From assembly GCA_900095875.1 (NCBI GenBank), contig LT608311.1, forward strand, positions 434,001 to 498,000: 64,000 bases of DNA. The letters run 5' to 3'. The number at the start of each line of letters is the position of its first letter. Within the stretch, counting starts at the first letter, position 1. The notes beneath the pieces were generated by a model, which saw only the letters and a program-made list of their open reading frames with translations, did no database searches and was not told the DNA's origin. Of this stretch, positions 5,104-22,782 are shown in pieces. Source of the stretch: Caecibacter massiliensis (GTDB lineage Bacteria > Bacillota > Negativicutes > Veillonellales > Megasphaeraceae). A program made the position numbers and the translations under genes.

Positions 5104-5957
5104 CAGGGTTCTACCTCCTGGAGCATGTCTTCCAGAAATGCCGGCAGCCAGAATGAACCGACATGGAGCCGCGTCGTATAGTACCGCGTGTGGAGATGGA
5201 GCTTTTCCCACGCCGCCGCGTCGAGGTCATTGACGGGATGATATTTTTTGCTGGCAAATCCGAACAGCCAGTATCCGGCCGCATAGGTCGGGATATGAGC
5301 CTGATAGACCTTACTGATAGGGAAGGTACTGACGATGCGCTGGTGGCTGCGCTGCATGGCCAGAGCGTCTTCTTTATAAAATGGGCTCCCCTGCTGATTG
5401 ACCATGATGCCGTCATCGCGCAGGGCATGATAACAGCTGCCATAAAATTCCTTCGTAAACAACCCCTCAGATGGTCCGAACGGATCGGTCGAATCGACGA
5501 TGATCAGGTCATATTCCGCTTCGCAGCTGCGGATAAACTTCAGGGCATTTTCAAAATGGATATGAACGCGGCTGTCATCGAGGCGGCAGGCATTGCCCGG
5601 CAGATAATTGCGGCAGGCTTCGACAACGGCCGGATCCATTTCTACCAAATCGACAGACCGTACCCGGTCATAGCGCGTCAATTCCCGCACGACTCCGCCG
5701 TCCCCGGCACCGATGACCAGGATATCCTGGCACTGCTGATGTACTGCCATGGGCACATGAGTAATCATTTCATCATAGATAAATTCATCCCGTTCGGTAA
5801 GCATGACGTTGCCATCAAGGGTCAGGACGCGGCCAAATTCCGGTGTTTCAAAAATATCGATGCGCTGATATTCGCTCTGCCGGGAATACAGATGGCGGTT
5901 GACGCGGATACTGTGCTTGACATCGGGCGTATGAAATTCACTGAACCAAAATTCCAT
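5103..5957 (-). CDS. speE: Spermidine synthase (polyamine aminopropyltransferase)
   Basis: A 284-residue class I methyltransferase-fold enzyme that moves the aminopropyl group from decarboxylated S-adenosylmethionine to a diamine. The nucleotide motif VIGAGDGGVVREL (81-93) and the acidic catalytic loop VDSTDPFGPSEGLF (154-167) are intact. The ATG at 5957 has GGAAGG upstream; the 54 extra open codons before it have no ribosome binding site. It lies 14 bases after the decarboxylase gene and overlaps agmatinase by one base. No S-adenosylmethionine decarboxylase (speD) is in the operon or elsewhere in the window, so its donor must come from a gene outside the window. Confidence 0.9.
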   Translation of the reverse strand: MEFWFSEFHTPDVKHSIRVNRHLYSRQSEYQRIDIFETPEFGRVLTLDGNVMLTERDEFIYDEMITHVPMAVHQQCQDILVIGAGDGGVVRELTRYDRVRSVDLVEMDPAVVEACRNYLPGNACRLDDSRVHIHFENALKFIRSCEAEYDLIIVDSTDPFGPSEGLFTKEFYGSCYHALRDDGIMVNQQGSPFYKEDALAMQRSHQRIVSTFPISKVYQAHIPTYAAGYWLFGFASKKYHPVNDLDAAAWEKLHLHTRYYTTRLHVGSFWLPAFLEDMLQEVEP

Positions 5958-5971
5958 GATATTCCTTCCTT

Positions 5972-7429
5972 TCACGCCAGGACATTGATGTGCTGCAAAT
6001 CGGGATCTTCTGATCCGGTCATGCTGCAGCCTTTTTCTTTGGCATAACATATGTGTTCCAGGATTTCTGCCGTAATCCGTTCGCCCGGCGCCAGAATGGG
6101 AATGCCCGGAGGATAACACATGACGAATTCACTGCATACGCGCCCTTCACTCTGTGCCAGAGGCAGACTGACCTTATCAGCATAAAACGCGTCCTGGGGG
6201 CTCATGACGACTTCCGGTTCCACATATTCCTGAGTCAGCATTCCTGCCGGATCTTTCTGATGATGGCGGCGGATTTCTGCCAGGGCACTGACCAGCCGTT
6301 CCAGTTCCTGTATGCGGTCTCCCATCGACAGATAGGCCAGAATATTGCCAATATCACCGAACTCAATCTGAATATCGTATTCATCGCGCAGGAGGTCATA
6401 GACTTCAATACCTGCCAGCCCGATGTCACGGGTATGGACGCTAAGTTTCGTACTGTCAAAATCAAAGACAGAATCGCCATTCATCAATTCCCGCCCAAAG
6501 GCATAATATCCGCCGATGGCATTGATTTCCTGACGGGCATAATCGGCCATATCGACGACTTTATGGAAAATTTCACGGCCGTGAAGTGCCAGGTGGCGAC
6601 GGCTGATATCCAGACTGGACATGAGAAGATAGCTCCCCGATGTCGTCTGAGTCAGGTTGATGATCTGCCGTACGTAGCCTGCATGCACATCCGGCCCGGT
6701 CAGAAGGAAGCTGGACTGGGTCAGGCTGCCACCGCTCTTGTGCATCGATACGGCCGCCATATCGGCACCAGCCGCCATAGCCGATACGGGAAGGCCATGG
6801 CCAAAATAGAAATGCGTACCATGGGCTTCATCGGCCAGACATCGCATCCCCGCATCATGAGCCATGCGGACAATGGCCCGCAGGTCACTGCATATTCCGT
6901 AATAGGTCGGGTTATTGACCAATACGGCTACGGCGTCAGGATTTTCCTCGATGGCCCGCGCTACCTGCTGGCGCTGCATACCCAGAGAAATGCCCAGCCG
7001 TGCATCGACTTCCGGATTGACATATACAGGTATGGCTCCACAGAGCACCAGAGCATTGATGACACTTTTATGGACATTGCGCGGCAGAATGATTTTATCT
7101 CCCCGCTTACAGACGGTCAGTACCATGCTCTGCACGGCACTGGTCGTCCCGCCGACCATCAGAAAGGCATGGGCGGCCCCAAAGGCCTCTGCGGCCAGTT
7201 CTTCCGCCTCGCGGATGACAGAAACAGGATGACACAGATTATCCAGCGGTTTCATACTGTTGACATCGACGCCGACGCACTGTTTCCCGAGGAAAGCCGT
7301 CAGTTCCGGATTTCCCCGGCCTCTCTTATGTCCCGGTACATCAAAAGGGACAACACGCATATCACGGAATCGCTGCAGAGCTTCATATATTGGTGCCCGT
7401 TGCTGTGATATGGCCGCTTGTTTTGACAT
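5972..7429 (-). CDS. speA: Arginine (or lysine/ornithine) decarboxylase, PLP fold type I
   Basis: A 485-residue member of the Orn/Lys/Arg decarboxylase group I family in its short, wing-less Firmicute form. Visible motifs are DVPGHKRG near the N-terminus, NPTYYG, the PLP-ring aspartate in DEAHGTH (about 200) and the Schiff-base lysine in SMHKSGGSLTQS (about 231). Followed by agmatinase, it most probably decarboxylates arginine to agmatine. The ATG at 7429 is nine bases after GGGGAG; an ATG at 7435 is too close to that site. It is the first gene of the polyamine operon and follows an attenuator-like terminator at 7458-7492. Confidence 0.87.
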   Translation of the reverse strand: MSKQAAISQQRAPIYEALQRFRDMRVVPFDVPGHKRGRGNPELTAFLGKQCVGVDVNSMKPLDNLCHPVSVIREAEELAAEAFGAAHAFLMVGGTTSAVQSMVLTVCKRGDKIILPRNVHKSVINALVLCGAIPVYVNPEVDARLGISLGMQRQQVARAIEENPDAVAVLVNNPTYYGICSDLRAIVRMAHDAGMRCLADEAHGTHFYFGHGLPVSAMAAGADMAAVSMHKSGGSLTQSSFLLTGPDVHAGYVRQIINLTQTTSGSYLLMSSLDISRRHLALHGREIFHKVVDMADYARQEINAIGGYYAFGRELMNGDSVFDFDSTKLSVHTRDIGLAGIEVYDLLRDEYDIQIEFGDIGNILAYLSMGDRIQELERLVSALAEIRRHHQKDPAGMLTQEYVEPEVVMSPQDAFYADKVSLPLAQSEGRVCSEFVMCYPPGIPILAPGERITAEILEHICYAKEKGCSMTGSEDPDLQHINVLA

Positions 7430-7457
7430 TACCATATTCTCCCCCCATTGCCTGCAT

Positions 7458-7492
7458 AAAAAAGCGCAAGCTGCGCTGCTGCACAACTTGCG
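7458..7492 (-). terminator. Intrinsic terminator or attenuator in the speA leader
   Basis: On the minus strand arms CGCAAGTTGTGC and GCGCAGCTTGCG (7465-7492) pair fully if G-U pairs are allowed, with a four-base AGCA loop and a six-T run (7458-7463). It ends only about 15 bases before the speA ribosome binding site. It may end the upstream operon, or act as a conditional attenuator for speA. Confidence 0.8.
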
Positions 7493-7838
7493 TCCTGACA
7501 ATTCCAATATACTAAGACGATGGAAACATCCTGTCCGTCATCCGTCTTAGTGGAAAATATGATCAGAGTCTATATAGCAATTCTACTTTTACTACTCCTA
7601 TTGATCGGTTCACAAGTGTGCCTGCGCACATTTCGGTTATGAAGTAACCAACTCTTGAAAACTGAGCATACAGCTCAATCAATAAGGCAGCAATCATGCC
7701 GCCAATCGGCAGTGGACCCGGCTGTCCGTATGGCCTGAACTTTAAAAAAAGTGGTCCCGTACAATTGCTTTGAAAAGACCTGTTCTGTCATCTTTCCAAA
7801 ATCATACCAATCGTATCATAAAGAAAAATACCTGTCAA
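7493..7838. other. Leader/intergenic region between nifH-like gene and speA
   Basis: 346 bases without a clear gene. It holds a hairpin at 7511-7551 (arms ACTAAGACG and CGTCTTAGT) and a small one near 7634-7648. It also has minus-strand short frames of 38 codons (7675-7791, MTEQVFSKQ...) and 44 codons (7563-7697, MIAALLIELY...), and a 27-codon plus-strand frame (7559-7642) encoding a highly hydrophobic peptide with a run of seven leucines. None has a strong ribosome binding site. The region may be a structured 5' leader controlling the polyamine operon. Confidence 0.4.
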
Positions 7839-8603
7839 CTATCTGGCGTCACTTGCCGGCGTATCCATCAGTTTCCGGGCCAGTTCCTGGTACAGGAGGC
7901 TCACGGGCAGATCCGGATTACCTTCGACGACGGTCATGCCCTGGTTTTCATAATACTGGATTTCTTTACTGCGCGGTATATCGGCTATAATGGGCAGATT
8001 ATGGCTGTTGGCAAAAGCCTGTACGATATCATACTCGTTCTCTACGTTGCGCCTGTTGAGGATGATTCCCCGGACCTGGGCATATCCCCGGTCTTTGAAA
8101 TTTTCTACTGCTTTGATGATATTGCCGGCAGCATACAGAGCCATTTTTTCTCCCGACGTGACAATGAAGATTTCGTCGGCGTACCCATCCCGTATAGGAG
8201 CCGAAAAGCCACCGCACACGACATCGCCCAGTACGTCATACAACACGACATCCGGCTGGATCCGGTCGAAGACTTCCAGTTCATCTATGAGATCAAAGGT
8301 AGCAATGATACCTCTTCCTGCACAGCCCAGCCCCGGCGTAGGTCCGCCCGTTTCGATGCAGAAGACACCGCCATACCCGGTTTTACCGATATGCTCGAAA
8401 TCCGGTTCTTCCGTATAGGTCCGGTAATAATCCATGACCGGCATGACAGGCTCGCCATGAAGGAGATTCCACGTCGAATCGGCCTTGGGATCGCAGCCGA
8501 TTTGGATGACCTTCTTCCCCAGTCTGGCCAGAGAAGCCGAAATATTGGCAGCTGTCGTCGATTTGCCGATGCCGCCTTTTCCATAAATCGCAAATTTTCT
8601 CAT
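7839..8603 (-). CDS. NifH-like iron protein (nitrogenase reductase family ATPase)
   Basis: A 254-residue homodimeric ATPase of the NifH/BchL/CfbC family that passes electrons from a [4Fe-4S] cluster to a component-1 partner. The Walker A motif GKGGIGKST is at 8-16, switch region GCDPKAD at 36-42, and both cluster cysteines are in place: C94 in GLGCAGRG and C130 in [11 protein letters not shown]. It is shorter than true NifH (about 290) and lacks its long C-terminal tail. It is the last gene of the operon, 13 bases after a component-1-like gene, with AGGAAAGG as ribosome binding site. The partner is most likely one or both component-1-like pairs encoded upstream; the substrate is unknown. Confidence 0.93.
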
Positions 8604-8616: not shown

Positions 8617-9843
8617 CTATTTCAAACGATCCCGCAACCAGTCCGCTATGTCCGGCCCAGCAATCACAGGCATTTCATCGTGATAGTGGCGCCCAGAATA
8701 CGCTTCGTGGGGCAGAGAAATAAATGCATCCTGTTTTTCCGGAAGCAGCCGGGCATAAATGGGGTCTGCCAAGACATGCTGCGCCTTGCGGCATTCTTCG
8801 CGGATGACCGGTTCGACACTGACCGTTTCTATATGGCGCAGGAGCAGCTGAGGCGCATCGGCCAGCGGGCATAAGAGCCGCACCGTAGAAAGACCCAGCT
8901 CATGGCGCAGCAGATTTCCCATAGAAAGGAGATATACCGGCTCGCCAATGACCAGGGCATCACAGGGCTGGTCATCATACACCGTTTCCGTCTTCCAGGC
9001 ATTGAGATCGGCCAGAGCGTACTGCGGCTTTTCCCGGGGTTCTCTTCCCGTAAGACCTGTCAGATACGATGTATCCCCTTCACGCAATGCCTGCAGCCAG
9101 TCTGCTGTTCCCTGTTTTCCCATAGGGATGCCGGCTACATAAGGAATCCCGTACTGTTCCTGCATATATTGGGCCAGATACAACCCCGTAGAAGAGACGA
9201 CGGCATTGACATCGGCGTTGGCCGCTTCAAACAGATTATCCAGCGTATCTCCCATAGACCACGAACTCTGTATGATGAATCCCGCTTCTGTCAAAATGGT
9301 TTTGATAGCAGTTGCATTGCCGACGACAGAAAAATCCAGAGGTGTCAGTCCCAGGATGTTGATTCTTCGCGCCGGCCGCTGTGGCTGTCTGAACGGACGT
9401 TTCAGGAAATGCTGCGCCAGGCGGACGTAAGCATTCCCCGCACCGGGAAGATAACTGTGGATACCGTCCGTCCGGAATCCCATCGTAAAAATACCCGTCC
9501 GTTCTTGTACCATTTTTTCAATGGCCCGGAAATCCGTCCCGATTGCATTAGGCATGGGACTGCCTCCGATAGCGATAAAAGCCGGATGGACGGCATCGGT
9601 TACTTCGGCAATATCATGGATGAGCCGCTGGTCGTTGCCCTGAATAGTGTCGATTTCATTGAGTCCTGATATGTACACCATGGATGGTGTATCGTACCAT
9701 CGCGGCTCATCATGGGTATCATACGTCGAATTACAACCTGATGCATCGTGCATGACAACCAGCCCGCCCAGTTCAAACAGGGCCGAAGCGATACCAAACA
9801 TATCTACGGCATAGGTAGATAAGACTCGTTGTGCTTGTTTCAT
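8617..9843 (-). CDS. Nitrogenase component 1-like protein, B-type subunit of pair 2
   Basis: A 408-residue protein of the nitrogenase molybdenum-iron/BchNB superfamily. The segment [19 protein letters not shown] (32-50) matches the HGPxGC P-cluster segment, with one conserved cysteine, C37. The second cysteine site is replaced by [13 protein letters not shown] (93-105), so a full NifDK-type P-cluster is not expected from this chain. The ATG at 9843 overlaps the upstream stop as ATGA and follows GGGGGTG. It is clearly paralogous to the 343-residue protein at 15877-16908 (shared DEPRW and IGTDF motifs). I infer a D/K-like heterodimer with the 451-residue protein just upstream. Confidence 0.85.
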
Positions 9844-11195
9844 CCATGACACCCCCAGGCTTTGACTTGAATAATCTCTCTCATGTTCGGATTTTCTTTA
9901 CCAGCGGCATCACCGATCCAGTCCAGCAGTTTCATAAGACCCACATACCCATACAGGCCGCTGTTTTCAATGATATTGACAAAATACTTCGTATCCGTAA
10001 AGTAAGCTGCCATCTGGCCGATAGCCAGGACTTTTCCATATTTCCGGCTGTCATCCCGCGGCAGGAGACGCCGCTTGAAATGCATGGTCGAACGCAGGGA
10101 CAGGTTTGGATAATGTTCTTTCAAGAAAAAGAAACTGTCTTTTTCATCTGGTGAAATGGCATCGAGATACACGGCATACACATTACATCCATGAGTCAGC
10201 AGGAACCGTGCCAGTCCCAGAGGCCGCGGTGTCGCTGTAAAATCGATGGCAATCGGCGTCTGCCCGAGTATATTATGCAATTTCATCGCCTTCTCTTCTA
10301 TCTGCTGTTCAAAGGCATCGCAATCAGGCATGGTAAGGTGCAGTACATCCGCTGCCTTCTGCAGGTTCTTCCGCAATGTCCCATAGTCGTAGGCATACGG
10401 CAGATACAGGGCATCCTGTCCCAGACGACGCTTCATGTCGCGGGCTGCCGGTGCAGCATTTTCCAGGAAATAAATATTGGCTGCCGATTCCCCCATCTGT
10501 TTATATTCATCATACGTACGGCAGTCCGCAAAATCGTGAATGGCATACCCGCCAGCACAGAGCATGGCTGTCAATTCATTATCTCCATCGACAGGGTAAT
10601 AATTGACGATGTAATTCACGGCCCGGCGTGGCGGCATTTTCGTCACGGCCCGCATCAGCTGCCGCCGTCCCAGAATATCCGGCGTATACCTTCGCTGCAA
10701 AGTGGGCGTCATATAGCCGTCGATGAAATCGATGTCAGGAAACCGCTGGCGCAGCGTGTCGTAGACGATGCGGACATCGATATGGAGGAAATGCTGCATG
10801 CAGCTCGTAAAACCTTCGACGCAACGGGGCCGTTCCGGCAATTCTTCTATAATCCGGGATATACCGTCGATCATCATGTCTTCCAGATTGCCTTTGATGA
10901 GATTTTCATTGGTCAGGGTCACCATGGAAAAACGCCCGGCGCCATCGGGGATTTCATCAGCCGATAAGACGACGCCGTGAAGACAGCAGGCACAGCAGAC
11001 GTATATTTCATGGCACTGGGGAATGAGCATAGGCGAGTGGGCGATGGTCCAGTGGCCCCGGGCCGGTGAAGCATACTGCAGGCCAATATAAAACGGTTTG
11101 GGAAAATCCGCCCTGCCTATGGAAATTTCGGCACCATCCGGCGTAACCGTATATCGGGGCACCTGAGGCGGATGGATTTCATTTTCGTAAATCAT
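9840..11195 (-). CDS. Nitrogenase component 1-like protein, A-type subunit of pair 2
   Basis: A 451-residue divergent member of the nitrogenase component-1 superfamily. The region SPMLIPQCHEIYVCCACC (54-71) stands where NifD has its GPxGC ligand segment and is unusually cysteine-rich (C61, C67, C68, C70, C71). FTSCMQHFLHID (129-140), with C132, corresponds to the second ligand segment, and LTNENLIKGNLEDM to the E-DIVFGG element. It starts 15 bases after hypE with GAGGGAG as ribosome binding site. It pairs with the 408-residue protein encoded directly downstream and is a diverged paralogue of 16905-18221. No function is known to me for this subgroup. Confidence 0.8.
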   Translation of the reverse strand: MIYENEIHPPQVPRYTVTPDGAEISIGRADFPKPFYIGLQYASPARGHWTIAHSPMLIPQCHEIYVCCACCLHGVVLSADEIPDGAGRFSMVTLTNENLIKGNLEDMMIDGISRIIEELPERPRCVEGFTSCMQHFLHIDVRIVYDTLRQRFPDIDFIDGYMTPTLQRRYTPDILGRRQLMRAVTKMPPRRAVNYIVNYYPVDGDNELTAMLCAGGYAIHDFADCRTYDEYKQMGESAANIYFLENAAPAARDMKRRLGQDALYLPYAYDYGTLRKNLQKAADVLHLTMPDCDAFEQQIEEKAMKLHNILGQTPIAIDFTATPRPLGLARFLLTHGCNVYAVYLDAISPDEKDSFFFLKEHYPNLSLRSTMHFKRRLLPRDDSRKYGKVLAIGQMAAYFTDTKYFVNIIENSGLYGYVGLMKLLDWIGDAAGKENPNMREIIQVKAWGCHG

Positions 11196-11210
11196 GCTCT
11201 CCCTCCTCGG

Positions 11211-12215
11211 TCAGCATATGCGGGGCAGCAATTCTCCCCCCGGCGGCGGGAGCATCGTTTCCGCACCGATTTCCGTGCGCAATATGACCCGGCCCGGCTG
11301 TTCTGCCGTGACCTGTCCGATGATAGCGGCATCTTGAGAATAAGGCTGCCGGTGCAGCACATCCAGAATCGCCGGCGCTTCACATTCTGGCGCGACGATG
11401 ACCAGACAGCCTTCACAGGCCAGGTAGAGCGGTTCCAGTCCAAGCATGCCACAGACGCCGCGGACGGAGGGATGTACCGGTACGGACTGGCTGTCCAGAT
11501 GAATGCCGACGTGGCTCTGGCTGGCGATCTCATACAGGACCGTTCCCACGCCACCCCGGGTGGCATCGCGGATAACGTGGATATCTTTCGTCTGCCCGAG
11601 CATGGCTTCTACCGTTCCCCATAAGGGAGCACAATCGCTGGTTACATCGGCGTCGATGCCGAACTGATTCCGTGCCAGCAAAATCGTACAGCCATGGCGG
11701 CCAACATCGCCACTGACAATGACTACATCGCCGGGGCGTGCCAGCGTACCGGACGTATGGACGCCAGTCAGGCGCTGTCCGATTCCCGTAGTCGTAATAA
11801 ACAAGTGGTCTACCTGCCCTTTTCCTGCTACTTTCGTATCGCCGGCTACGATGCGCACCCCCGCCTCGGCAGCCGTACGGGCCATAGATGCGGCATACTC
11901 TTCGACCTTAGCCAGAGGGAATCCTTCTTCGATGACAAAAGCACAGGACAGATATAATGGCCGTGCTCCCATACAGGATAAATCATTGACCGTGCCACAG
12001 ATGCTGAGTTTGCCAATATTGCCACCGGGAAAATCCGGCGGGGAAACGATAAACCCATCAGTCGTAAAGGCCAGGTCGGCACCGCCGATGGAAAGGACGG
12101 CCGCATCATCACCGGTAAACTGAGGGTTGGAAAAATGGGCTTTAAATACGCGGTCGATCAGTTCGGCCGTCTGTCTGCCACCGGCCCCATGGGCCAGCGT
12201 AATCACATCATTCAT
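11211..12215 (-). CDS. hypE: Hydrogenase maturation protein HypE
   Basis: A 334-residue PurM-like ATPase that dehydrates a carbamoyl group on its C-terminal cysteine to thiocyanate, the cyanide donor of the Fe(CN)2CO group. The N-terminus LAHGAGG and the C-terminal PRIC (331-334), carrying the essential last cysteine, are both intact, so the protein should be active. Start ATG overlaps hypD as ATGA, with GGAGGAAAG upstream. It lies between hypD and the second component-1-like pair in the same operon. Confidence 0.96.
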   Translation of the reverse strand: MNDVITLAHGAGGRQTAELIDRVFKAHFSNPQFTGDDAAVLSIGGADLAFTTDGFIVSPPDFPGGNIGKLSICGTVNDLSCMGARPLYLSCAFVIEEGFPLAKVEEYAASMARTAAEAGVRIVAGDTKVAGKGQVDHLFITTTGIGQRLTGVHTSGTLARPGDVVIVSGDVGRHGCTILLARNQFGIDADVTSDCAPLWGTVEAMLGQTKDIHVIRDATRGGVGTVLYEIASQSHVGIHLDSQSVPVHPSVRGVCGMLGLEPLYLACEGCLVIVAPECEAPAILDVLHRQPYSQDAAIIGQVTAEQPGRVILRTEIGAETMLPPPGGELLPRIC

Positions 12216-13267
12216 CGTATCTTTCCTCCATACGTATAATACGCAGAGCAGGCACCTTCATGAGATACCATGCAGGCTCCGACCGGCTGTTCCGGTGTGC
12301 ATACCGTACCGAACAGCGGGCACTGGGGTGGCGTGCATTTTCCCTGCAGGATATCACCACAACGGCAGGCCGGATTGGCCTTTCCCTTCATGGGCGGCAC
12401 GCTGTATTTACGGCGGGCATCCCACGCTGCGTAATCGGAGCGGAGCCGCAGTCCCGATTGAGAAATACAGCCCAGACCGCGCCATTCATCATCACACGGC
12501 ACCATAACGTCTGCCATGAGTTCTTTAGCTGTCCGGCTTCCTTCTCTGGTGACGACGCGGGGATAGCAGTTTTTAAAGAACGGCCTGCCCTGCCGTATTT
12601 TCTTCAGGATAACGGCAAAGGCTGTCATCAGTTCTTTTGCCGTAAAACCGGCGACGACACCAGAAACGCCCTGCTGTACCATGGCTTCACAATCACCAGT
12701 CCCCATGACGGCACAGACATGGCCGGGATACAGGAATGCATCGGCGCTATCCTTCATCGCTTCGTAAGCACGGGGCATTGTTTTATTGGCCGTGAGGAGA
12801 GAAAAATTCATCACCCCTTCCGCTCTGGCTGTCCGGACGGCCAGGCAGGAGGGCGGCGTCGTCGTCTCAAATCCTACGGACAAAAATACGACTTCTTCAT
12901 CACGGTGCTGCCGGGCATAGTCGTAGGCGTCGAGGGGTGAATAGACAATTTCTACATGGGCTCCCATGCTCCGCGCCCCGGCCAGGCTCTGTGTGCTCCC
13001 CGGTACACGGACGAGATCGCCGAACGTACAAATGGTCACCTTCCGTTCCAGAGCCAGCCAGATGGCTTCGTCTATGTAGCGGACAGGCGTCACGCAGACC
13101 GGGCAGCCCGGTCCAGAAATGACTTCCACCGCTTCCGGCAGAATCTGTCTGATTCCCAGCCGGAAAATTTCATGAGTATGAGTCCCGCAGACTTCCATAA
13201 TCCGTACAGGCGGGCCATCATACGAACGTATTATCTGAAGTGCCGTTTGTGTATATTCATTTCCCAT
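12212..13267 (-). CDS. hypD: Hydrogenase maturation protein HypD
   Basis: A 351-residue iron-sulfur protein on which, with HypC, the Fe(CN)2CO unit is assembled. Conserved motifs CGTHTH (27-32) and GPGCPVC (52-58) contain the iron and redox cysteines, and the C-terminal cysteine set (CRCGDILQGKC, QCPLFG, GACMVS) for the [4Fe-4S] cluster is complete. Start overlaps hypC as TGATG. Nothing suggests degeneration, so a working Fe(CN)2CO assembly complex is expected even though no hydrogenase subunit is near. Confidence 0.96.
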   Translation of the reverse strand: MGNEYTQTALQIIRSYDGPPVRIMEVCGTHTHEIFRLGIRQILPEAVEVISGPGCPVCVTPVRYIDEAIWLALERKVTICTFGDLVRVPGSTQSLAGARSMGAHVEIVYSPLDAYDYARQHRDEEVVFLSVGFETTTPPSCLAVRTARAEGVMNFSLLTANKTMPRAYEAMKDSADAFLYPGHVCAVMGTGDCEAMVQQGVSGVVAGFTAKELMTAFAVILKKIRQGRPFFKNCYPRVVTREGSRTAKELMADVMVPCDDEWRGLGCISQSGLRLRSDYAAWDARRKYSVPPMKGKANPACRCGDILQGKCTPPQCPLFGTVCTPEQPVGACMVSHEGACSAYYTYGGKIR

Positions 13268-13476
13268 CAGTCCAGGTCCTCCAGAATATCATCCATTTCT
13301 TCTTCATCATCCCCGGTAATCCGGGCAATAGCCATTCCGGCATGGACCATGACATAATCACCGGGATCCAGTTCGTCCAGCAGTGCTGCCGATACTTCCC
13401 TTCTGGCTCCGGATGCATCGACCAAAGCCATTCCCTGATGCACTTTTACGACCCGTGCAGGTAATCCGACACACAT
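13267..13476 (-). CDS. hypC: Hydrogenase assembly chaperone HypC
   Basis: A 69-residue OB-fold chaperone beginning MCVGLPARV. The second residue is the conserved cysteine that, after methionine removal, binds the iron of the Fe(CN)2CO unit and carries it from HypD to the target protein. AAGGAGG lies ahead of the ATG. The gene follows a 109-base, very AT-rich gap (13477-13585), the only sizeable gap in the operon, which could hold an internal promoter. The acidic C-terminus (DDEEEMDDILEDLD) is usual in this family. Confidence 0.95.
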   Translation of the reverse strand: MCVGLPARVVKVHQGMALVDASGARREVSAALLDELDPGDYVMVHAGMAIARITGDDEEEMDDILEDLD

Positions 13477-13585
13477 GGCGATTCCTCCTTACATACAGTA
13501 AATAGATATTTATATTAATATTGTATATATAGCATATTAATATATGCTTTATTTTTAATTAAATTGATTTCTAAATCGTTCTATC

Positions 13586-15877
13586 TCATTGCCGTTCCTG
13601 GTTCATCATGGCATATACAGCCTGCCCCAGGGCAATACCACCATCAGTGGCAGGAACGAGATGATGGCGTAGAACGCCCAGCCCAGCCTGTCCCAATGCC
13701 TGTTCACACAAGGACAGGAGCAGCGTATTCTGAAACACGCCGCCACTCAGAGCCACGGTCTTCACACCCGTTTCCTGCGAAATCTGCAAACAGGCACCGG
13801 CAATTTGTCCGGCCAGCCGGCAATGGAAAATATAAGCCAGGAAATCCGGATCTCTGCCAGCCATTTTTTCTTCTGCCAGATATTGCACCAGTTCCATCGT
13901 CGGCAGTATCCACCGGCCGTTTTCCTTCTGAGGCGGTATCAGGGTCTCCGGTCTGGTATGATGATCTTTCATCCATCGCCAGGCTGCAAACTGAATCTTC
14001 ATCGCCGCTTCGCCTTCAAACGACGACTGCCGCGCCAGACCCAGAATAGCACTGACGCCATCAAACAAGCGGCCCGCACTGGTAGACAAAATACTATTTA
14101 TACCCTGTTGCGTCATAAAAGCCTGCATCTGCCATTCTTTCCGGCTGCAGAGGCGCAGTCTGTCCACTACAGCCACAGCCTCATCCGTCTTTGGATACAA
14201 ATGGCTGATAAGGCTGACGGCAATGCGCCATCCTTCCCGGGCTGCCACATCACCACCGCGCTGCCAGAAAGGTGCGATAGACGCACTGCGGTGGAATCCA
14301 TGACAGTCACAGAGGAGTATTTCTCCTCCCCATACGGTGCCATCGGTTCCATACCCGGTCCCGTCAAAAGCTACACCTATGACAGGCTGTTCCCAATCGT
14401 TTTCTGCCATACAGGACAGGATATGAGCAAAATGATGCTGGACGGGAATGACAGGCAGCCCCATTTCCTGAGCAACAGCTGTCGTATTATACCGGGGATG
14501 AAGATCACAGGCCACGCAGGCCGGTTCTATTTCAAGGAGCGTTTTCATCCGGGAAACACCATCCCGCAGGGCCTGTACGGTCCGGACATCGGCCATGTCC
14601 CCGATATATGGAGACAAGTAATACAGCCGGTCCCTGACCAGGCAAAAGCTATTTTTCAGTTCTCCGCCCAGTGCCAGAACCGTCCCCGTTTCCCTGCCAT
14701 AGAAAAACGGCAACGGCGCATAGCCGCGGGAACGGCGTATCATGTACGGACTGCCATCATACCAGTTTATTACGGAATCATCGGCCCGCAGCCGGATCCG
14801 CCGGTTATGGCTGAGAATGGCATCACACAAGTCAGGAAGTTCCTGCCGTGCTTCTGCTTCATCGTGGCATATGGGAGCACCCGATACATTGGCGCTGGTC
14901 ATGACCAGCGCATCCGGTACGTCCAGACCATCATCATACGTAAAGAGCAGCAGATGAAGAGGCGTGTACGGGAGCATGACGCCCAAAAAAGGATTTTCCG
15001 GTGCCAGCGAAGGTGCCAGCGTAGTATCAGACCGTTTTTCCAACAGAATGATGGGCTTTTCATGCCCGTCCAGCACCCGGTCTGCCCCGGCAGGTATGAC
15101 ACAGTGACGGTCCACGGTAGCCATATCCTTCATCATGACGGCAAAGGGTTTTGCCGGCCGGTGTTTCAGACAGCGCAGGCGCTGTACAGTTTTTTCCTGA
15201 AACGCATCACAACAAAGATGATATCCTCCGATGCCTTTGACAGCTATGATACGGCCCGATACAAGAGCCTGCCGGGCAGCCGTGACTGCATCCCGCCCCC
15301 GTTCTGTACTATCCAGTATATAGACTTCCGGTCCGCAATCGGGGCAGCATACCGGCTGAGCGTCATAGCGCCGTGTTTCCCGATGGGTATATTCATATTC
15401 ACATTGGGAGCACATGGGAAATTCTGCCATACTCGTCCGTTCCCGGTCATAGGGCATGGCATCGAGGATGGTCATGCGGGGCCCGCAGGCCGTGCAGTTG
15501 ATGAACGGATGGAGATAGCGGCGGTTCTGCGGATCAAACAACTCTTTTTTGCAATCGTCACAGATGGCGATATCAGGAGACACAAAGACGTCTCCTTCCT
15601 CTGCTTCACTTTCGACAATAGAAAAATCAGGAAAGGGCGGTACATCCGTCTGCTCCGTTATGATTTTGAGAATTGCTGACCGTGCCGGCGCTTTTTCAGG
15701 TAACTTCTGTTGAAACTGTTTCCGGGCCTCCTCTGGCCCCTGGACCAATATTTCTACATAAGACCCCTTATTGCAGACCGTGCCACGAACGTGACAGAAA
15801 TGGGCCAGCCGGCTGACGAACGGTCGGAACCCGACTCCCTGCACGATACCGAGTACACAAATCCGAACTGTTTCCAT
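13586..15877 (-). CDS. hypF: Carbamoyltransferase HypF
   Basis: A 763-residue protein that uses carbamoyl phosphate and ATP to carbamoylate HypE. All domains are visible: N-terminal acylphosphatase (QGVGFRPF, about 15-22), two zinc fingers (CDDC...CTAC and CSQC...CPDC, about 108-183), a YrdC-like domain (about 195-375), and the C-terminal Kae1-like domain with the iron-binding HHFAH motif and the ALSGGVFQN motif. The ATG at 15877 overlaps the upstream stop as TGATG, with GGGGAGG before it. It is the first hyp gene in the operon, directly coupled to a nitrogenase-like gene. Confidence 0.96.
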   Translation of the reverse strand: METVRICVLGIVQGVGFRPFVSRLAHFCHVRGTVCNKGSYVEILVQGPEEARKQFQQKLPEKAPARSAILKIITEQTDVPPFPDFSIVESEAEEGDVFVSPDIAICDDCKKELFDPQNRRYLHPFINCTACGPRMTILDAMPYDRERTSMAEFPMCSQCEYEYTHRETRRYDAQPVCCPDCGPEVYILDSTERGRDAVTAARQALVSGRIIAVKGIGGYHLCCDAFQEKTVQRLRCLKHRPAKPFAVMMKDMATVDRHCVIPAGADRVLDGHEKPIILLEKRSDTTLAPSLAPENPFLGVMLPYTPLHLLLFTYDDGLDVPDALVMTSANVSGAPICHDEAEARQELPDLCDAILSHNRRIRLRADDSVINWYDGSPYMIRRSRGYAPLPFFYGRETGTVLALGGELKNSFCLVRDRLYYLSPYIGDMADVRTVQALRDGVSRMKTLLEIEPACVACDLHPRYNTTAVAQEMGLPVIPVQHHFAHILSCMAENDWEQPVIGVAFDGTGYGTDGTVWGGEILLCDCHGFHRSASIAPFWQRGGDVAAREGWRIAVSLISHLYPKTDEAVAVVDRLRLCSRKEWQMQAFMTQQGINSILSTSAGRLFDGVSAILGLARQSSFEGEAAMKIQFAAWRWMKDHHTRPETLIPPQKENGRWILPTMELVQYLAEEKMAGRDPDFLAYIFHCRLAGQIAGACLQISQETGVKTVALSGGVFQNTLLLSLCEQALGQAGLGVLRHHLVPATDGGIALGQAVYAMMNQERQ

Positions 15878-16908
15878 CAATACCTCCCCGATACGGCGAA
15901 ATGAGGCACATCCACATACAGGCCATGGAAATGAGACAGGGCCCGCTTGAAATAGATATCACCCAGGATGACATCGAAGTCATCATTATCGGCCAGCTGG
16001 CACCAGTCGTCTTCTTCCTTCAGCTGGACATGTCCCGGCCGGATACAAGACGATTCCGTCCGGAACCATCCTGCTGTCTGTACCAAAGCCGCACCAGCAT
16101 TCCGTACCGCTTCTGCCATGGCATTGGCCGTAACCTGCTGATGGACGACCAGTACCCGCTTCCCTGTTACGGCAGCCCGGATATCTTCCGGCAGGGGCCG
16201 TCCCAGATAGCGTACTTCATAAGGGGTCCCAAACCGTTCATACAGATAGCGTGCTCCTTCCAGTGCTGCCGGTGATACGACAAAATTCTTCTCATTCCTG
16301 CCAGCTTGTTCATACGCTTCCCGGCAGTCAAAAAGTATTACCTGCTTCCAGCCTTCCCCATGCAGTATCTCCATGAGGGCCTGTTGTTCATCCGGGGAAG
16401 CCATTTCCAGGGGAACTGCCCCGAGGACACCGGCCCGGCCTCGTTCCACCACTGTCTCCGGCTGGGCCAGGACAGGAAGCAGCGCGTTGTAAGCTGCCTG
16501 CATCCCGTCGTCATAATAGCCAATTCCTGTCGTCGGGACGGCCAGTGCCGGTATGTTGAGTGTACGGGATATCATACGGCACAGCGCCTTGAAATCCGTA
16601 CCGATGACAGCTGGAACGGGAGTACCCACCAGTGCCACAAAGGCAGCATTCACTGTTTCTGCCGCTGCGCACACTTTGCGTACGAGCAGATCATCGCGGC
16701 CGAGGATGGCATCCATGTCGCGCAGTCCTGCACTAAAAACGGCACTCCTTTTACCGCTGAACCAGCGCGGTTCATCAAAGCCGCAGATATTCCCGGCACA
16801 GCCACCGGCATCACAGATAACGACGATGCCACCCAGACCGTAGAGTACGGCGGCCGCTCCTGACTGGTCCGGAGCAAAGGGAGACAAATATTTCCACAAT
16901 CCTTTCAT
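15877..16908 (-). CDS. Nitrogenase component 1-like protein, B-type subunit of pair 1
   Basis: A 343-residue protein of the nitrogenase component-1 superfamily. CDAGGCAGNICGFDEPRWF (32-50) is the P-cluster-like segment with C32, C37 and C42; the second ligand site is again lost (VGTPVPAVIGTDF). It is shorter than NifK (over 450), lacking much of the C-terminal third. It overlaps the upstream A-type gene as ATGA and hypF as TGATG, so translation is coupled across the nitrogenase-like/hyp boundary. It is a paralogue of 8617-9843. The likely partner is the 438-residue protein upstream. Confidence 0.85.
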   Translation of the reverse strand: MKGLWKYLSPFAPDQSGAAAVLYGLGGIVVICDAGGCAGNICGFDEPRWFSGKRSAVFSAGLRDMDAILGRDDLLVRKVCAAAETVNAAFVALVGTPVPAVIGTDFKALCRMISRTLNIPALAVPTTGIGYYDDGMQAAYNALLPVLAQPETVVERGRAGVLGAVPLEMASPDEQQALMEILHGEGWKQVILFDCREAYEQAGRNEKNFVVSPAALEGARYLYERFGTPYEVRYLGRPLPEDIRAAVTGKRVLVVHQQVTANAMAEAVRNAGAALVQTAGWFRTESSCIRPGHVQLKEEDDWCQLADNDDFDVILGDIYFKRALSHFHGLYVDVPHFAVSGRY

Positions 16909-18221
16909 CGCCCGTTTTTCCCCCTTTCGTCCAGAGCCAATCCAATATGCCGCAACAGAGAAAGGACGCCAGCATATCCGAAAGGCTGGATATCGTCATC
17001 CCAATTCACGTGGGCAGCCGTTTCATGATACCAGGCCGCATCCTTGCCAATGGTCAGATCGACCGGATGGGATGCTCCTTCATAGTAGAGCATGGTAGGA
17101 GACAAGTTGGAGTATACCTTTGTTTCCGGGCTCCATTGTGCCAGATGACGCAGATAGACAAAATCATCCGGACTGAGACTAGCATATATTTCTTTGATCG
17201 TAAACCCGTACCGTGTCAGAGCCAGTGCCATTTCGTAAGCATTGCCATTCTGCATGCCACCTATAGCCACAGTCGTACCACTATAGCGGGCGCGGACTGC
17301 TTCAACAACCTGGCGGGCCTGTTCCAGCCACGATTCATCCTGAATAGGGGCACCGAGAACGCGGGACAAGGCCATGTACTGGCGGTGAATCTGTGATACC
17401 TGATACAATCGTGTCAGGGTAATAGACGGGATACCCAGTCTTTTTTCCATATCCTGCGCCGCCAGCCACGACTCCGGATGGAGGACGAGGTTAAAATTAG
17501 CCTGGGACATAGCCAGATATTCTTCAAAATTACGGCAGCGGGCTAGTTCCTGTATCTGTTTGATTCCTGTCTGACGCAGGATAGGATACAGCTCGCAATC
17601 ATCCTGCAGGGGAGAAAAAAATCCCAGCAGATTGACCGTACGGCGATGACGCGGCTGCTTTTCCAGCAGGGAATAGAGGGCACGGCGTACATCGACCATC
17701 GGCGGTTTGCGCCCTTCCCGCGTCAGAGCGTACATGTAACACGGCACGACAGGGACGCCGCAGACCGAAGCCGCTTTCCGGCTGACCCGTTCCATATCCG
17801 TTCCCAGGAGGGCATCGACGCAGGTCATGCAGAGCATGACCACCGATGGCTTCTCCCGTCGGGATTCCACGATTTCCGCGACAGCCTGCGGAATCTTCTG
17901 CAAGTGCCTGCCCGTGACGATATCCGTTTCATCGAGGATATAGAAGTAAAACCGGTCCTGATAGCCTCCCTGCTCGCCCAAAATGGTCGTATTGCGGCCA
18001 CAACAGCCAGGACCGATGAGGAGCATGATAGATCCCGGTATAGAAAGGCCCGCCCGTTTTACGCCGAATCCCTGTGCTCCCGGGGAATTAAAAGCCAGTG
18101 CTGCCGGCGAATTGTAAATCAGATGCTTCGAGGATAGAAGTTCTTCCGGGATATGGTCTTTTCCTTTCTGCACCAGATCACCTACGGTAATAGCATAAGG
18201 CTGTGTATCTTTATATTCCAT
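16905..18221 (-). CDS. Nitrogenase component 1-like protein, A-type subunit of pair 1
   Basis: A 438-residue protein that best preserves NifD-like features in this operon. IGPGCCGRNTTI (69-80) matches HGPxGC, with C73 and C74. LDETDIVTGRHL (96-107) matches the E-DIVFGG motif. VVMLCMTCVDALLGTDM (127-143) matches the second ligand segment before IGDD, with C134. The NifD N-terminal ligand (GCxYAG) is not evident; FNSPGAQGFGVKRAG stands there. Three in-frame ATGs exist (18227, 18224, 18221); the last is best spaced from GGGTGG. It follows the TM1266-like regulator by 12 bases and overlaps the B-type gene. Confidence 0.87.
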   Translation of the reverse strand: MEYKDTQPYAITVGDLVQKGKDHIPEELLSSKHLIYNSPAALAFNSPGAQGFGVKRAGLSIPGSIMLLIGPGCCGRNTTILGEQGGYQDRFYFYILDETDIVTGRHLQKIPQAVAEIVESRREKPSVVMLCMTCVDALLGTDMERVSRKAASVCGVPVVPCYMYALTREGRKPPMVDVRRALYSLLEKQPRHRRTVNLLGFFSPLQDDCELYPILRQTGIKQIQELARCRNFEEYLAMSQANFNLVLHPESWLAAQDMEKRLGIPSITLTRLYQVSQIHRQYMALSRVLGAPIQDESWLEQARQVVEAVRARYSGTTVAIGGMQNGNAYEMALALTRYGFTIKEIYASLSPDDFVYLRHLAQWSPETKVYSNLSPTMLYYEGASHPVDLTIGKDAAWYHETAAHVNWDDDIQPFGYAGVLSLLRHIGLALDERGKNGR

Positions 18222-18233
18222 CATCATTCCACC

Positions 18234-18485
18234 CTACTGCGGCAACGGCGGATAAATCGTCTTAGTACTCACATCGGGAAGCATGCCCAGCTTTCCCGAC
18301 AGGGCGCTGATGACATCCTGGGGGGCATCGACGATGATGCTGATGACATTGACATGCTTATCTTTATAAGGAACTCCCATGCGGCCGACAATGTATTGGC
18401 CATATGCATGGAGGATTTCATTCAGCTTCCCCGACTCATTGCGGTCTGCAACGATAATACCAATCAGTGCGATTCTCGTTTCCAT
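18234..18485 (-). CDS. TM1266-family iron-only hydrogenase system regulator
   Basis: An 83-residue ferredoxin-like (ACT/NikR C-domain type) protein beginning METRIALIGIIVADR and containing YIVGRMGVPYKDKHVNVISI. Members are called iron-only hydrogenase system putative regulators because they occur with HydE/F/G maturases; their ligand is not established. The ATG at 18485 has GAGGTGA at good spacing, while the open frame upstream has none. It is the first gene of the ten-gene operon, following a leader of roughly 160 bases. Its presence links this nitrogenase-like system to hydrogenase-type cofactor biology. Confidence 0.85.
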   Translation of the reverse strand: METRIALIGIIVADRNESGKLNEILHAYGQYIVGRMGVPYKDKHVNVISIIVDAPQDVISALSGKLGMLPDVSTKTIYPPLPQ

Positions 18486-18661
18486 ATGTATCACCTCATA
18501 AAAAAAATCCCATGCCAAAAGCACAGGACGACAGACACGTTGTGTGTAAGATGTGCTTTCCGCCTCATCTGTGCAGGACACCTTTACAGAAAAGTACGAC
18601 AGCTTTTGCATGACGTTCTCCCGCAGGAAATCCGTTGGGATGACATGTTTAATTCATTATA
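18486..18661 (-). promoter_or_regulatory. Promoter and structured leader of the nitrogenase-like/hyp operon
   Basis: TATAAT at 18656-18661 on the minus strand is a perfect -10 box; the -35 is poor. The leader of about 160 bases contains a hairpin with arms AAAGCACA and TGTGCTTT (18518-18559) close to an eight-T run (18500-18507). ATCCCA (18636-18641) and TGGGAT (18507-18512) could close the leader in a long-range stem. The layout resembles a riboswitch or attenuator. I could not match it to a known class. Confidence 0.5.
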
Positions 18662-21139: not shown

Positions 21140-22432
21140 CTACGCCTCATTCTTGAAGGAGATAATCTTAGGCCGAATGGCACCTACCTGCTCTAATTCT
21201 TTGCGTACGTTCTCCATTTCTTTCTGCTGCCGCTGCTGGACAAGTTCCACTTCTTTCTGAGCATCATCGAATTTGATATGCGTATACACATTGAGCGTGA
21301 TGGAAATATCGCTGTGCCCCATCAAGTACTGCAGGGTCTTGGCGCTTACCCCGGAAAGAGCCATGTTGGTACAGTACGTGTGCCTGCAAACATGCGGAGT
21401 AATCGGCGGCAGTTGGTAGCGGTAAATCCGATTGTATTTATTAACGGCTCGGCCAAAATAATGTTCCCAATGCATCGCTACCAAGGGATTACCGTTTTTA
21501 TCATAATAGAGGAAGTTACCATGACCATCAATCATCGCTTCAACTTTAGGCGGTTTTCGACAGCGCAGGATTTCAGCAAAACACTGATATACTTCTTCTG
21601 TCATGGGCAGCACCCTAGCCCCAGCCTTTGTTTTAGTAGAGATGATATATCGTCTCCCTGTCGTATCTCGCTGAAGCTGTTTATCTACATTGATGGTACG
21701 TTTTTCCATATCAATGTCGCCAACAGTCAATCCGCAGAATTCTGAAATTCGCAGCCCCGTGTGGAAAAGTATAAAGACTGCTTCATAGTATTTTTTATAA
21801 TGCCGGTCGTTTTTCAAAAATTCCAGGAAGATTCTCATATCCTTTCGGGAAACCGCTTCCCGTTTCACACTGTCATTGATGAGGATTTCTTTCATTTCAA
21901 AATTAAAAGGATTCCTCCATAAAATTTCATCATCGACCGCCATCTGGAAAGCGGGCCGTACAACACCCCGGACGCTGTGAATGGAGCTATATCCCTTCCC
22001 TTCTGACTGCATTTTGACCAGCCATAACTTGGCGTCAGACATTTTGACTTTACCGATAGGTTTTTGCGAAAAAGGGTCTTTCGCCAGTAGTTTGACAACA
22101 AAATTATAATTCGTCCTTGTGTTAGGTTTGACACCTGTCTTAACGGCTAGATAGCGCTGCACCAATTCCATAACGGTCATAGTATCATCATCACGATTAG
22201 GACAAATAGCAGAACGGATTTCTAAATCCTTCTCTAACTCTCTCAGCGATTTGCATGGCTTCTTCCCTGCCGGTAGTGGGTCTGTAGGTTCCAACTTCCA
22301 ACTGTAAAAGAACTTTGGTTTTCCATTTAACTGATATTTGAACTGATATCTTCCATCTGCCCGGACCGTTTCACCAGGCCGTAATTTTCGTTTTTTCTTA
22401 TCCCTACGGATACCTGACTGCGTACATGGCAT
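21140..22432 (-). CDS. int: Tn916-type tyrosine recombinase (phage integrase)
   Basis: A 430-residue site-specific recombinase. The N-terminal arm-binding domain resembles the Tn916 Int start (RADGRYQFKYQLNGKPKFFYSWKLEPTDPLPAGKK), shown here only as the shared YSWKL..TD..PAGK pattern. A SAM-like core-binding domain follows, then the catalytic domain with arginine in TGLRISE, HxxR in HVCRHT, histidine in MGHSD and the tyrosine in NVYTH. The ATG at 22432 has AAAGGAG upstream; the open frame before it overlaps xis. A copy of the prophage promoter motif (22467-22495) sits directly upstream. Confidence 0.95.
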   Translation of the reverse strand: MPCTQSGIRRDKKKRKLRPGETVRADGRYQFKYQLNGKPKFFYSWKLEPTDPLPAGKKPCKSLRELEKDLEIRSAICPNRDDDTMTVMELVQRYLAVKTGVKPNTRTNYNFVVKLLAKDPFSQKPIGKVKMSDAKLWLVKMQSEGKGYSSIHSVRGVVRPAFQMAVDDEILWRNPFNFEMKEILINDSVKREAVSRKDMRIFLEFLKNDRHYKKYYEAVFILFHTGLRISEFCGLTVGDIDMEKRTINVDKQLQRDTTGRRYIISTKTKAGARVLPMTEEVYQCFAEILRCRKPPKVEAMIDGHGNFLYYDKNGNPLVAMHWEHYFGRAVNKYNRIYRYQLPPITPHVCRHTYCTNMALSGVSAKTLQYLMGHSDISITLNVYTHIKFDDAQKEVELVQQRQQKEMENVRKELEQVGAIRPKIISFKNEA

Positions 22433-22466
22433 AATTTCAGTCTCCTTTCTCTTATGTTCTTGTCTA

Positions 22467-22495
22467 TACATCACTCTAATCAGCAAATAAGTCAA
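22467..22495 (-). promoter_or_regulatory. Shared prophage promoter motif, copy upstream of int
   Basis: Minus strand TTGACT (22490-22495), 17 bases ending in TTAGAGT, then GATGTA (22467-22472). It has the AGAGTGAT element of the other five copies and the best -35 match of the set. Confidence 0.55.
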
Positions 22496-22509
22496 TTCAT
22501 ATCCGCCAA

Positions 22510-22728
22510 TTAAATACTCGAAGTCTGGCAAAGAAACTTTTCAAATTCTTTCCGGATGATGAGCAGATGGCTTCCGTTATAGACTACGAAAGACGCATCC
22601 GGGCGTTCTGCCGCAAGTGCCTTGATTTTCTTTTCACCAATATGAAAGTACACGCTGGCTTCCTTAGGCGTCAGCATGAACCGTTGAAAAATGGGAACTG
22701 CCTTTTCAAATTCATTCTGTTCGTTCAT
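22510..22728 (-). CDS. xis: Tn916-type excisionase
   Basis: A 72-residue winged-helix excisionase with the family pattern RFMLTPKEASVYFHIGEKKI. This aligns by eye with the Tn916 Xis start (YTLTIEEASKYFRIGENKL). It should bend DNA near the attachment site and favour excision by the adjacent integrase. Its start codon is preceded by AGGAGGTG, which lies in the 3' arm of a hairpin (22731-22768), so translation may be limited. The hairpin and upstream sequence are a diverged copy of those before the gene at 33493-33900. Confidence 0.92.
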   Translation of the reverse strand: MNEQNEFEKAVPIFQRFMLTPKEASVYFHIGEKKIKALAAERPDASFVVYNGSHLLIIRKEFEKFLCQTSSI

Positions 22729-22730
22729 AA

Positions 22731-22768: not shown

Positions 22769-22782
22769 TCTGACGTTCCATT

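Follow-up and report, generated by a model that had tools for sequence, protein, structure and literature searches.

Two nitrogenase-like protein pairs encoded with HypCDEF: a probable HydG-independent [FeFe]-hydrogenase maturation system in Caecibacter massiliensis and its relatives

Which enzyme is served by an operon that encodes two nitrogenase component 1-like pairs, a NifH-like ATPase and the Hyp proteins of [NiFe]-hydrogenase maturation? We analysed this locus in the window, a stretch of 64,000 nucleotides from C. massiliensis. The first-pass annotation had proposed that one pair is a scaffold and the other a catalyst, with one NifH serving both and HypCDEF feeding the scaffold. Judged from gene content and gene distribution, the operon is probably a maturation system for [FeFe]-hydrogenase in which HydG has been replaced.

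Gene content of the operon

The window belongs to the complete genome of a gut-type Megasphaera. The operon lies entirely on the minus strand and holds two paralogous component 1 pairs, A and B, with HypF-C-D-E between them, and one NifH:

18234..18611, minus strand, TM1266-family small protein (PF21699, 2.1e-33; TIGR03959, 116.8 bits against a cut-off of 60.8)
16905..18227, minus strand, D_A, large component 1-like subunit of pair A (PF00148, 6.8e-34)
15877..16908, minus strand, K_A, small component 1-like subunit of pair A (PF00148, 4.0e-17)
13586..15880, minus strand, HypF, carbamoyltransferase (TIGR00143, 758.9 bits against a cut-off of 466)
13267..13476, minus strand, HypC, Fe(CN)2CO carrier beginning MCVGLPARVV (frame read between HypD and HypF)
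12212..13267, minus strand, HypD, Fe-S scaffold of the Fe(CN)2CO unit (TIGR00075, 386 bits against a cut-off of 192.8)
11211..12215, minus strand, HypE, with the C-terminal PRIC that holds the cyanide-forming Cys (TIGR02124, 405 bits against a cut-off of 251.6)
9840..11195, minus strand, D_B, large component 1-like subunit of pair B (PF00148, 3.9e-9)
8617..9843, minus strand, K_B, small component 1-like subunit of pair B (PF00148, 5.3e-33)
7839..8603, minus strand, NifH-like ATPase with [4Fe-4S] ligands C94 and C130 (PF00142, 1.9e-89)

The four component 1-like genes are open and adjacent where the first-pass annotation had placed them, with D_A now starting at 18227 and not at the second ATG (18221). 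K_B starts at an ATG, the GTG at 9852 being a longer alternative, and the TM1266-family gene probably starts at METRIALIGI; the name of that family is putative regulator of the iron-only hydrogenase system. Intergenic spacing was −4 to +15 bp, except for 109 bp before HypC. Neither hydE nor hydF is present in the window's own operon, and hypA/hypB were found in none of these operons. In a genome-wide profile search, all PF00148 genes fell within the operon, whose HypD is also the only HypD of the genome.

The NifH-like protein contains the P-loop motif and both cysteine ligands, and scored 304.9 bits against the TIGR01287 cut-off of 394, so that it is classed as NifH-like and not as a NifH equivalog. 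It is the only true NifH of the genome, the other PF00142 match (29.5 bits) covering the P-loop region alone. The single NifH is correct for this genome but is not supported as the ancestral design, since 28 of the 39 loci having both pairs carry two NifH genes; in the close relatives of the window, the second lies between the TM1266 gene and D_A.

Relationship of the two pairs

Membership of the nitrogenase component 1 superfamily, for which we required both a PF00148 score above 28.6 bits and the component 1 fold, was found for D_A, K_A, D_B and K_B. Each subunit of one pair has its paralogue in the other, as had been proposed. By BLASTP, D_A and D_B share 23% identity over 414 aa (E 9e-24) and K_A and K_B 34% over 236 aa (E 4e-35), and profile–profile comparison of the two large subunits gave a probability of 100% over 445 columns. 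Of the two motifs that the small subunits were said to share, DEPRW is invariant in both, while the second is looser across relatives, namely, [IV][GA]TD[FY]. In the tree, the D subunits form one clan and the K subunits another, each with A and B clades, in keeping with duplication of a whole D/K unit. An exclusive sister relationship of A and B was not supported, because on the D side class C, another Lachnospiraceae pair, clusters with B.

The conserved residues differ between the pairs. In pair A, C75, C76, C133, C136 and H108 of D_A (40 homologues) and C37, C42 and DEPRW of K_A are invariant, which gives six cysteines, four in D and two in K. In pair B, the invariant residues are C67, C71, C132 and H53 of D_B and C40, H35 and H47 of K_B in GTG numbering (C37, H32 and H44 from the ATG), giving three cysteines plus one, with DEPRW conserved. 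The pattern of pair A is unlike that of NifDK, in which 3+3 cysteines hold the P-cluster and Cys275/His442 hold FeMo-co.

K_A is fused to D_A in six loci, and a natural pair-A fusion was modelled confidently as one joined unit (pTM 0.90), its best solved-structure match being a natural NifEN fusion. The AF2 models of D_A–K_A and D_B (pLDDT 89.9 for D_B) match NifEN/NifDK. None of the sequences belongs to NifDK or NifEN proper, the best score being 68 bits against a cut-off of 505 (TIGR01282/01283/01285/01286). Both pairs have NifEN among their nearest relatives, and in this respect the NifEN-like character seen in the first-pass annotation was borne out.

HypCDEF, HydG and the [FeFe]-hydrogenase genes

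HypCDEF proved intact, as supposed. HypF, HypD and HypE reach equivalog level, HypC carries Cys2 and HypE ends in PRIC. The catalytic residues of the Hyp proteins and NifH are conserved: C2 and H45 of HypC in 47/47, the Cys-motif cysteines of HypD in 100% and LLPRIC of HypE in 48/48. All four hyp genes are present at 42 of 46 D_A loci; the others reach the end of a contig or have a small ORF that was missed. Of the Hyp loci, four have no D_A, and their genomes have pair-A genes on another contig or elsewhere; pair A is never without HypFCDE. No [NiFe] large subunit (PF00374) was detected in the complete own genome or in 20 relatives and system-bearing genomes searched, and the same search was sensitive enough to pick up even weak, partial matches (first ~70 positions) in 56 Lachnospiraceae. 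Among 397 Lachnospiraceae genomes sampled, 25 of the 26 with HypD and no NiFe hydrogenase carry the pairs, and all six with two HypD have a NiFe hydrogenase plus the pairs. These results show that HypF, HypC, HypD and HypE are tied to pair A, and to no nickel hydrogenase.

Ordinarily, HydG produces the Fe(CO)2CN unit; it is seen as supplying the diatomic ligands (CO and CN from tyrosine) and is normally thought essential for building the iron-only hydrogenase active site. It was found in 0/17 genomes of the window's family, 16 of which have the system, and in 28/28 genomes of the sister family, which is without it. Within Lachnospiraceae, HydG was detected in 175/397 genomes sampled overall and in 0/31 of those with pair A plus Hyp. 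Fisher's test gave 7.6e-9 for HydG against pair A in Lachnospiraceae and 5.8e-25 for HydE-like-positive, HydG-negative against HydG-positive genomes, values that overstate independence because the genomes are phylogenetically related. Pair A plus Hyp and HydG are mutually exclusive in the genomes sampled. Fourteen HydG-negative Lachnospiraceae, many of them draft MAGs, have a HydE-like match without the system, and pair B occurs alongside HydG in three genomes, all B-only. The own genome does not encode canonical HydEFG, its best HydG match (200.6 bits against a cut-off of 312) being ThiH. We rejected ThiH as a hidden HydG, as it exceeds the cut-off of its own family and its gene adjoins a ThiG-like gene.

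In relatives, hydE, hydF and a TM1266-family gene, in some cases together with aspA, belong to the operon as well; these genes typically accompany [FeFe]-hydrogenase maturation. One operon of this type combines NifH, both pairs, HypFCDE, TM1266, HydE and at least part of HydF. The HydE and HydF proteins of relatives score far over the equivalog cut-offs, and in the window's family hydF sits directly after the last nitrogenase-like gene in 15/15 relatives fetched. Either hydE or hydF was present in 30/49 A/Hyp loci, 7/9 B-only loci and 0/17 other nitrogenase-like loci, which demonstrates the link of the system to HydE, HydF and TM1266. The aspA gene adjoins hydF, an arrangement known from published hyd operons (PMC11736057). 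The own genome, the one surveyed for HydA, encodes HydE (311.5 bits against 254.6) and a group A [FeFe]-hydrogenase HydA (486 bits against 406) with TSCCP and GGCIGGGG; reading about half of this genome revealed no HydF (TIGR03918). An [FeFe]-hydrogenase has been studied in M. elsdenii, a member of the same genus (PMC7820892).

About nine Lachnospiraceae genomes have pair B but neither A nor Hyp, and in most of them hydE/hydF still lie next to it; 38/46 A/Hyp loci keep B in the same locus. The B-only loci carry a BtuCDF/FecCD-type ABC importer, as do class C loci, but the latter are without hyd genes. The A/Hyp operons share no conserved gene for a substrate or for transport.

Proposed pathway, alternatives and known systems

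In the proposed system, HypF/HypE would make cyanide from carbamoyl phosphate, and HypCD would build an Fe(CN)2CO-type unit that passes to pair A, a putative receiver rich in conserved cysteines, rather than to a [NiFe] large subunit. Because HypCD makes Fe(CN)2CO and the H-cluster needs Fe(CO)2CN, the proposal requires a ligand change, which counts against it, as do the lack of hydE and hydF in the window's own operon, the negative search for HydF in about half of the own genome, the 14 HydG-negative Lachnospiraceae without the system and the three genomes having pair B and HydG. Low-potential electrons, gated by ATP, may pass from NifH to A and then to B, and the pairs may lower the oxidation state of the iron and exchange one CN for one CO, yielding an Fe(CO)2(CN)-type unit. 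Next, the retained HydE and HydF would build the two-iron subcluster and pass it on to HydA. Pair B might act at the last, common step, as it goes elsewhere with hydE/hydF and the importer and without Hyp. On balance, we favour the view that the [NiFe], [FeFe] and nitrogenase cofactor machineries are joined here in one pathway.

The original division of labour, in which one pair is a scaffold that builds a cofactor from Fe(CN)2CO and the other acts as a nitrogenase-like reductase of an outside substrate, draws on the resemblance of both pairs to NifEN/NifDK, the presence of NifH and the association of HypCDEF with pair A. It is unlikely: pair B occurs without A and Hyp, still with hydE/hydF, and so needs no pair A as a scaffold; the strict exclusion between A/Hyp and HydG is left unaccounted for; and the A/Hyp operons have no conserved gene for such a substrate or its transport. 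The scaffold-plus-catalyst split is probably wrong because the final enzyme is likely [FeFe]-hydrogenase. Less likely still, the pairs could serve HydA or HydF as ATP-driven activases or repair factors and not make the CO/CN unit, with ThiH or free CO and cyanide standing in for HydG. NifH-like systems do activate other enzymes, such as methyl-coenzyme M reductase (PMC12176620), and HydF can take up trace CO/CN in vitro without HydG, although such activation reaches just about 1% (PMC9431212). This scheme does not account for HypCDEF, and ThiH is better assigned to its own family. It is also improbable, and somewhat more so, that pair B, its ABC transporter and class C make up a reductase pathway of their own, merely co-regulated with hyd genes; the shared importer and the three B-only genomes with HydG agree with this, whereas the retention of B in most A/Hyp loci and the contrast in hydE/hydF content (B-only 7/9, class C 0/17) do not. 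Least probable is that HypCDEF, which normally serves [NiFe]-hydrogenase, has a divergent large subunit as its client and adjoins the nitrogenase-like genes by chance, given the genome-wide searches that ruled out such a client (PF00374 in 0/20 genomes tested), the inseparability of pair A and Hyp, the second HypD of genomes having both systems and the lack of hypA/hypB.

If true, HydG-independent maturation by this operon would represent convergent assembly of one organometallic site, its ligands being drawn from HypCDEF and nitrogenase-like complexes. Nitrogenase-like proteins would gain a new class of substrate, iron–cyanide–carbonyl units, and organisms that have [FeFe]-hydrogenase, HydE and HydF while lacking HydG would be accounted for. 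A 2022 survey left a gap of this kind open for several acetogens, the majority of which have hypCDEF without hypAB as well (PMC9431212). In Clostridium ljungdahlii, C. ragsdalei and C. coskatii, hydG has been reported as undetected. In open-licence papers, we found at most incidental mentions linking nitrogenase-like proteins with Hyp or Hyd maturation.

CfbCD, DPOR BchLNB, methylthio-alkane reductase and the MCR activation complex likewise combine NifH with a component 1-like pair outside N2 fixation, but the present sequences are far under the cut-offs of the families represented in NCBIfam, and we know of none of these systems being linked to HypCDEF or the H-cluster. The likeness to NifEN lies in the component 1-fold heterodimer, the NifH partner, the D–K fusions and the best solved-structure sequence match of D_A and D_B, which is NifE; the system differs in having no NifB, in being fed by HypCDEF, in its two pairs and cysteine pattern, and in its link to hydrogenase maturation and not nitrogenase. 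With the [NiFe] HypCDEF branch it shares equivalog-level HypF, D and E, the HypC motif and the intact catalytic Cys, but it has no [NiFe] large subunit and no operon hypA/hypB, its apparent client being a nitrogenase-like pair. With HydEFG it shares the companions HydE, HydF, TM1266 and AspA and an [FeFe]-hydrogenase in the genome, whereas HydG is missing and has apparently been replaced by non-homologous machinery.

Organization of the operon and relationship of the two pairs

The system is encoded by a minus-strand operon running from 18611 down to 7839 in the order TM1266-family gene, D_A, K_A, HypF, HypC, HypD, HypE, D_B, K_B and NifH-like gene, where D and K are the large and small component-1-like subunits of pairs A and B:

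16905-18227, minus strand, D_A, large subunit of pair A
15877-16908, minus strand, K_A, small subunit of pair A
9840-11195, minus strand, D_B, large subunit of pair B
8617-9843, minus strand, K_B, small subunit of pair B
7839-8603, minus strand, NifH-like gene

The intergenic gaps range from -4 to +15 bp, the only exception being 109 bp ahead of HypC. HypF, HypD and HypE exceeded the NCBIfam equivalog cut-offs, and HypC is the small reading frame located between HypD and HypF. The D and K subunits belong to the nitrogenase component-1 superfamily (Pfam, NCBIfam), falling far under the NCBIfam cut-offs of every named nitrogenase, DPOR or CfbD family. Directly downstream (1704-7507), where relatives carry hydF, lies an apparent polyamine cluster of decarboxylases, a spermidine-synthase-like gene and an agmatinase-like gene. 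The upstream region (21140-29088) is possibly a mobile-element remnant; it contains a tyrosine-integrase-like gene, a short fragment resembling DNA polymerase A and a large gene resembling trimeric autotransporters.

The first-pass annotation had described the pairs as paralogous, and this was confirmed by alignment of D_A with D_B (23% over 414 aa, E 9e-24) and of K_A with K_B (34% over 236 aa, E 4e-35), and by comparison of the two D profiles using hhalign (100% over 445 columns). In a tree of 108 subunits, D was separated from K with full support, and A and B clades were found within both sides, indicating duplication of a whole D/K unit, as that annotation had anticipated. An exclusive A/B sister pair was not supported, because class C, a further nitrogenase-like pair of Lachnospiraceae, clusters with B on the D side. 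Class C is a third, unassigned nitrogenase-like class in this family; its NifH-D-K loci (L124-L130, L133, L135, L137, L139 and L144) lack hyd and hyp genes, and most of them encode an ABC transporter of the BtuCDF/FecCD type.

Pair A has six invariant cysteines (D_A C75, C76, C133 and C136; K_A C37 and C42) and an invariant D_A H108. Pair B has a three-plus-one set (D_B C67, C71 and C132; K_B C40), reminiscent of the NifEN/DPOR-type [4Fe-4S] site. HypC C2 and H45, the terminal LLPRIC of HypE, the cysteines of the HypD Cys motifs, and NifH C94 and C130 are kept in all or nearly all copies. In-frame natural D_A-K_A fusions of 812-888 aa, useful for structural work, occur in six related loci (L099, L106, L108, L109, L122 and L143). 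The AlphaFold2 model of the L106 fusion (pLDDT 89.5, pTM 0.90) had as its best solved match a natural NifEN fusion, with both halves aligned (E 2e-27) but placed differently relative to each other (rmsd 27.6). D_B modelled alone (pLDDT 89.9) matched NifEN and NifDK chains.

Distribution and companion genes

The genome holding the window (2.65 Mb, 100% complete) carries a single HypD, PF00148 genes confined to the operon and, by genome-wide search, no [NiFe] large subunit. The single NifH of the first-pass annotation holds for this genome but not generally: among 39 loci with both pairs, two NifH genes were found in 28 and one in 11. Close relatives have an A-side NifH between TM1266 and D_A, which the window has lost. 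The HydA survey, covering this genome, detected two [FeFe]-hydrogenase-like genes, one of group A over the cut-off with TSCCP, PCTAKKAE and EVMACPGGCIGGGG. HydF was not found in the roughly half of the genome that was read.

Within the window's family, both small subunits occur in 16 of 17 genomes. Strong matches were obtained in 56 of 397 Lachnospiraceae genomes, often draft MAGs. No [NiFe] large subunit was detected in any of the 20 genomes tested, which came from the first related loci and the window's family. HypD was present in 79 Lachnospiraceae genomes; 26 of these have no [NiFe]-hydrogenase, and 25 of the 26 carry the pairs. In the six genomes where HypD is present twice, [NiFe]-hydrogenase and the pairs always occur together. 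These results indicate that HypD tracks either the nickel hydrogenase or the A/B system. HypFCDE and pair A cannot be parted across loci: all four hyp genes were seen in 42 of 46 D_A loci, the others reflecting contig truncation (L008, L094 and L110) or an overlooked short ORF (L045), and in the genomes of the four Hyp loci without D_A, pair A is encoded on a different contig or elsewhere. Pair B occurs without A and Hyp in nine loci (L113, L114, L115, L117, L118, L119, L121, L123 and L138).

Clustering of neighbours gave two recurrent companions, HydF (566 bits against the NCBIfam cut-off of 325) and HydE (539-575 bits against 255). hydE or hydF was present in 30/49 loci with pair A and Hyp, 7/9 B-only loci and 0/17 loci with other nitrogenase-like pairs. 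In each of the 15 loci fetched from further members of the window's family, HydF lies immediately after the final nitrogenase-like gene, with aspA next in some; aspA is found adjoining hydF in hyd operons and was shown to be able to supply the bridgehead nitrogen (PMC11736057). Several Lachnospiraceae have the whole set in one operon (in L104: NifH, D_A, K_A, HypF, HypC, HypD, HypE, D_B, K_B, TM1266, HydE and HydF, the latter at least in part). In a same-genus relative (L007:8452-12994), frame changes interrupt each of D_B, the second NifH and HydF, through either decay or a sequencing error.

ABC importer ATPases (BtuD/FecE-like) with a C-terminal TM1266-like domain were identified by domain scan in B-only loci (L113:13214-14353, L115:4600-5670), and further ones are probable from length and TM1266 match (L117:11732-12832, L119:9398-10807). 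This architecture suggests that the TM1266 domain senses a ligand, and that B-only bacteria take up something connected with the synthesis of the H-cluster.

Absence of HydG

No genome of the window's family (0 of 17) scored over the HydG cut-off (TIGR03955); all 28 genomes of a sister family, which is without the system, did. The best HydG-profile match of the window's genome is ThiH (488 bits against its own-family cut-off of 380), adjoining a ThiG-like gene, and HydE, above the HydE cut-off, ranks second. In Lachnospiraceae, HydG was found in 175/397 genomes overall versus 0/31 of those that carry pair A together with Hyp (Fisher 7.6e-9, optimistic owing to kinship among genomes). This exclusion is seen in two distant families. 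Among the 51 Lachnospiraceae with a HydE-like match and no HydG, 31 have pair A and Hyp, and six more are B-only. Three genomes (G288, G420 and G458) combine pair B, hydF and HydG without A/Hyp, a mixed state that any model has to accommodate. Several Clostridium acetogens were reported to have HydE and HydF with HydG undetected, and to carry hypF-C-D-E, ordered as in the window, but no hypAB (PMC9431212); these are candidates for the A/B system.

Proposed role in H-cluster maturation

The Fe(CO)2CN unit produced by HydG is converted to the two-iron subcluster by HydE and HydF (PMC9431212; PMC13339137). In vitro, synthetic [Fe2(SH)2(CN)2(CO)4] can substitute for HydG and HydE (PMC13339137), indicating that supplying a CO/CN-bearing iron unit is what matters. 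Cyanide is made from carbamoyl phosphate by HypF/HypE, and HypCD bears Fe(CN)2CO (PMC12130793; PMC11565642). We propose that HypCD would hand its iron unit to pair A, that NifH-driven electrons within A and B would reduce the oxidation state of the iron and alter its ligands (one of the two CN on each iron giving way to a second CO), and that HydE and HydF would finish the cluster. Pair B may, speculatively, act as a shared final step, since in other genomes it is accompanied by hydE/hydF and an ABC importer but not by Hyp; the importer would then be an alternative supplier to Hyp/A.

By the evidence, all of it comparative, both pairs appear to be [FeFe]-hydrogenase maturases, and the earlier division into one scaffold and one catalyst is thus probably wrong; its analogy to NifEN and its placing of HypCDEF in the position of NifB were perceptive. 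Every single part comes from a known family. Among the open-licence papers searched, we found no precedent for the combination and its role, and no link of nitrogenase-like proteins to Hyp/Hyd maturation beyond incidental mentions.
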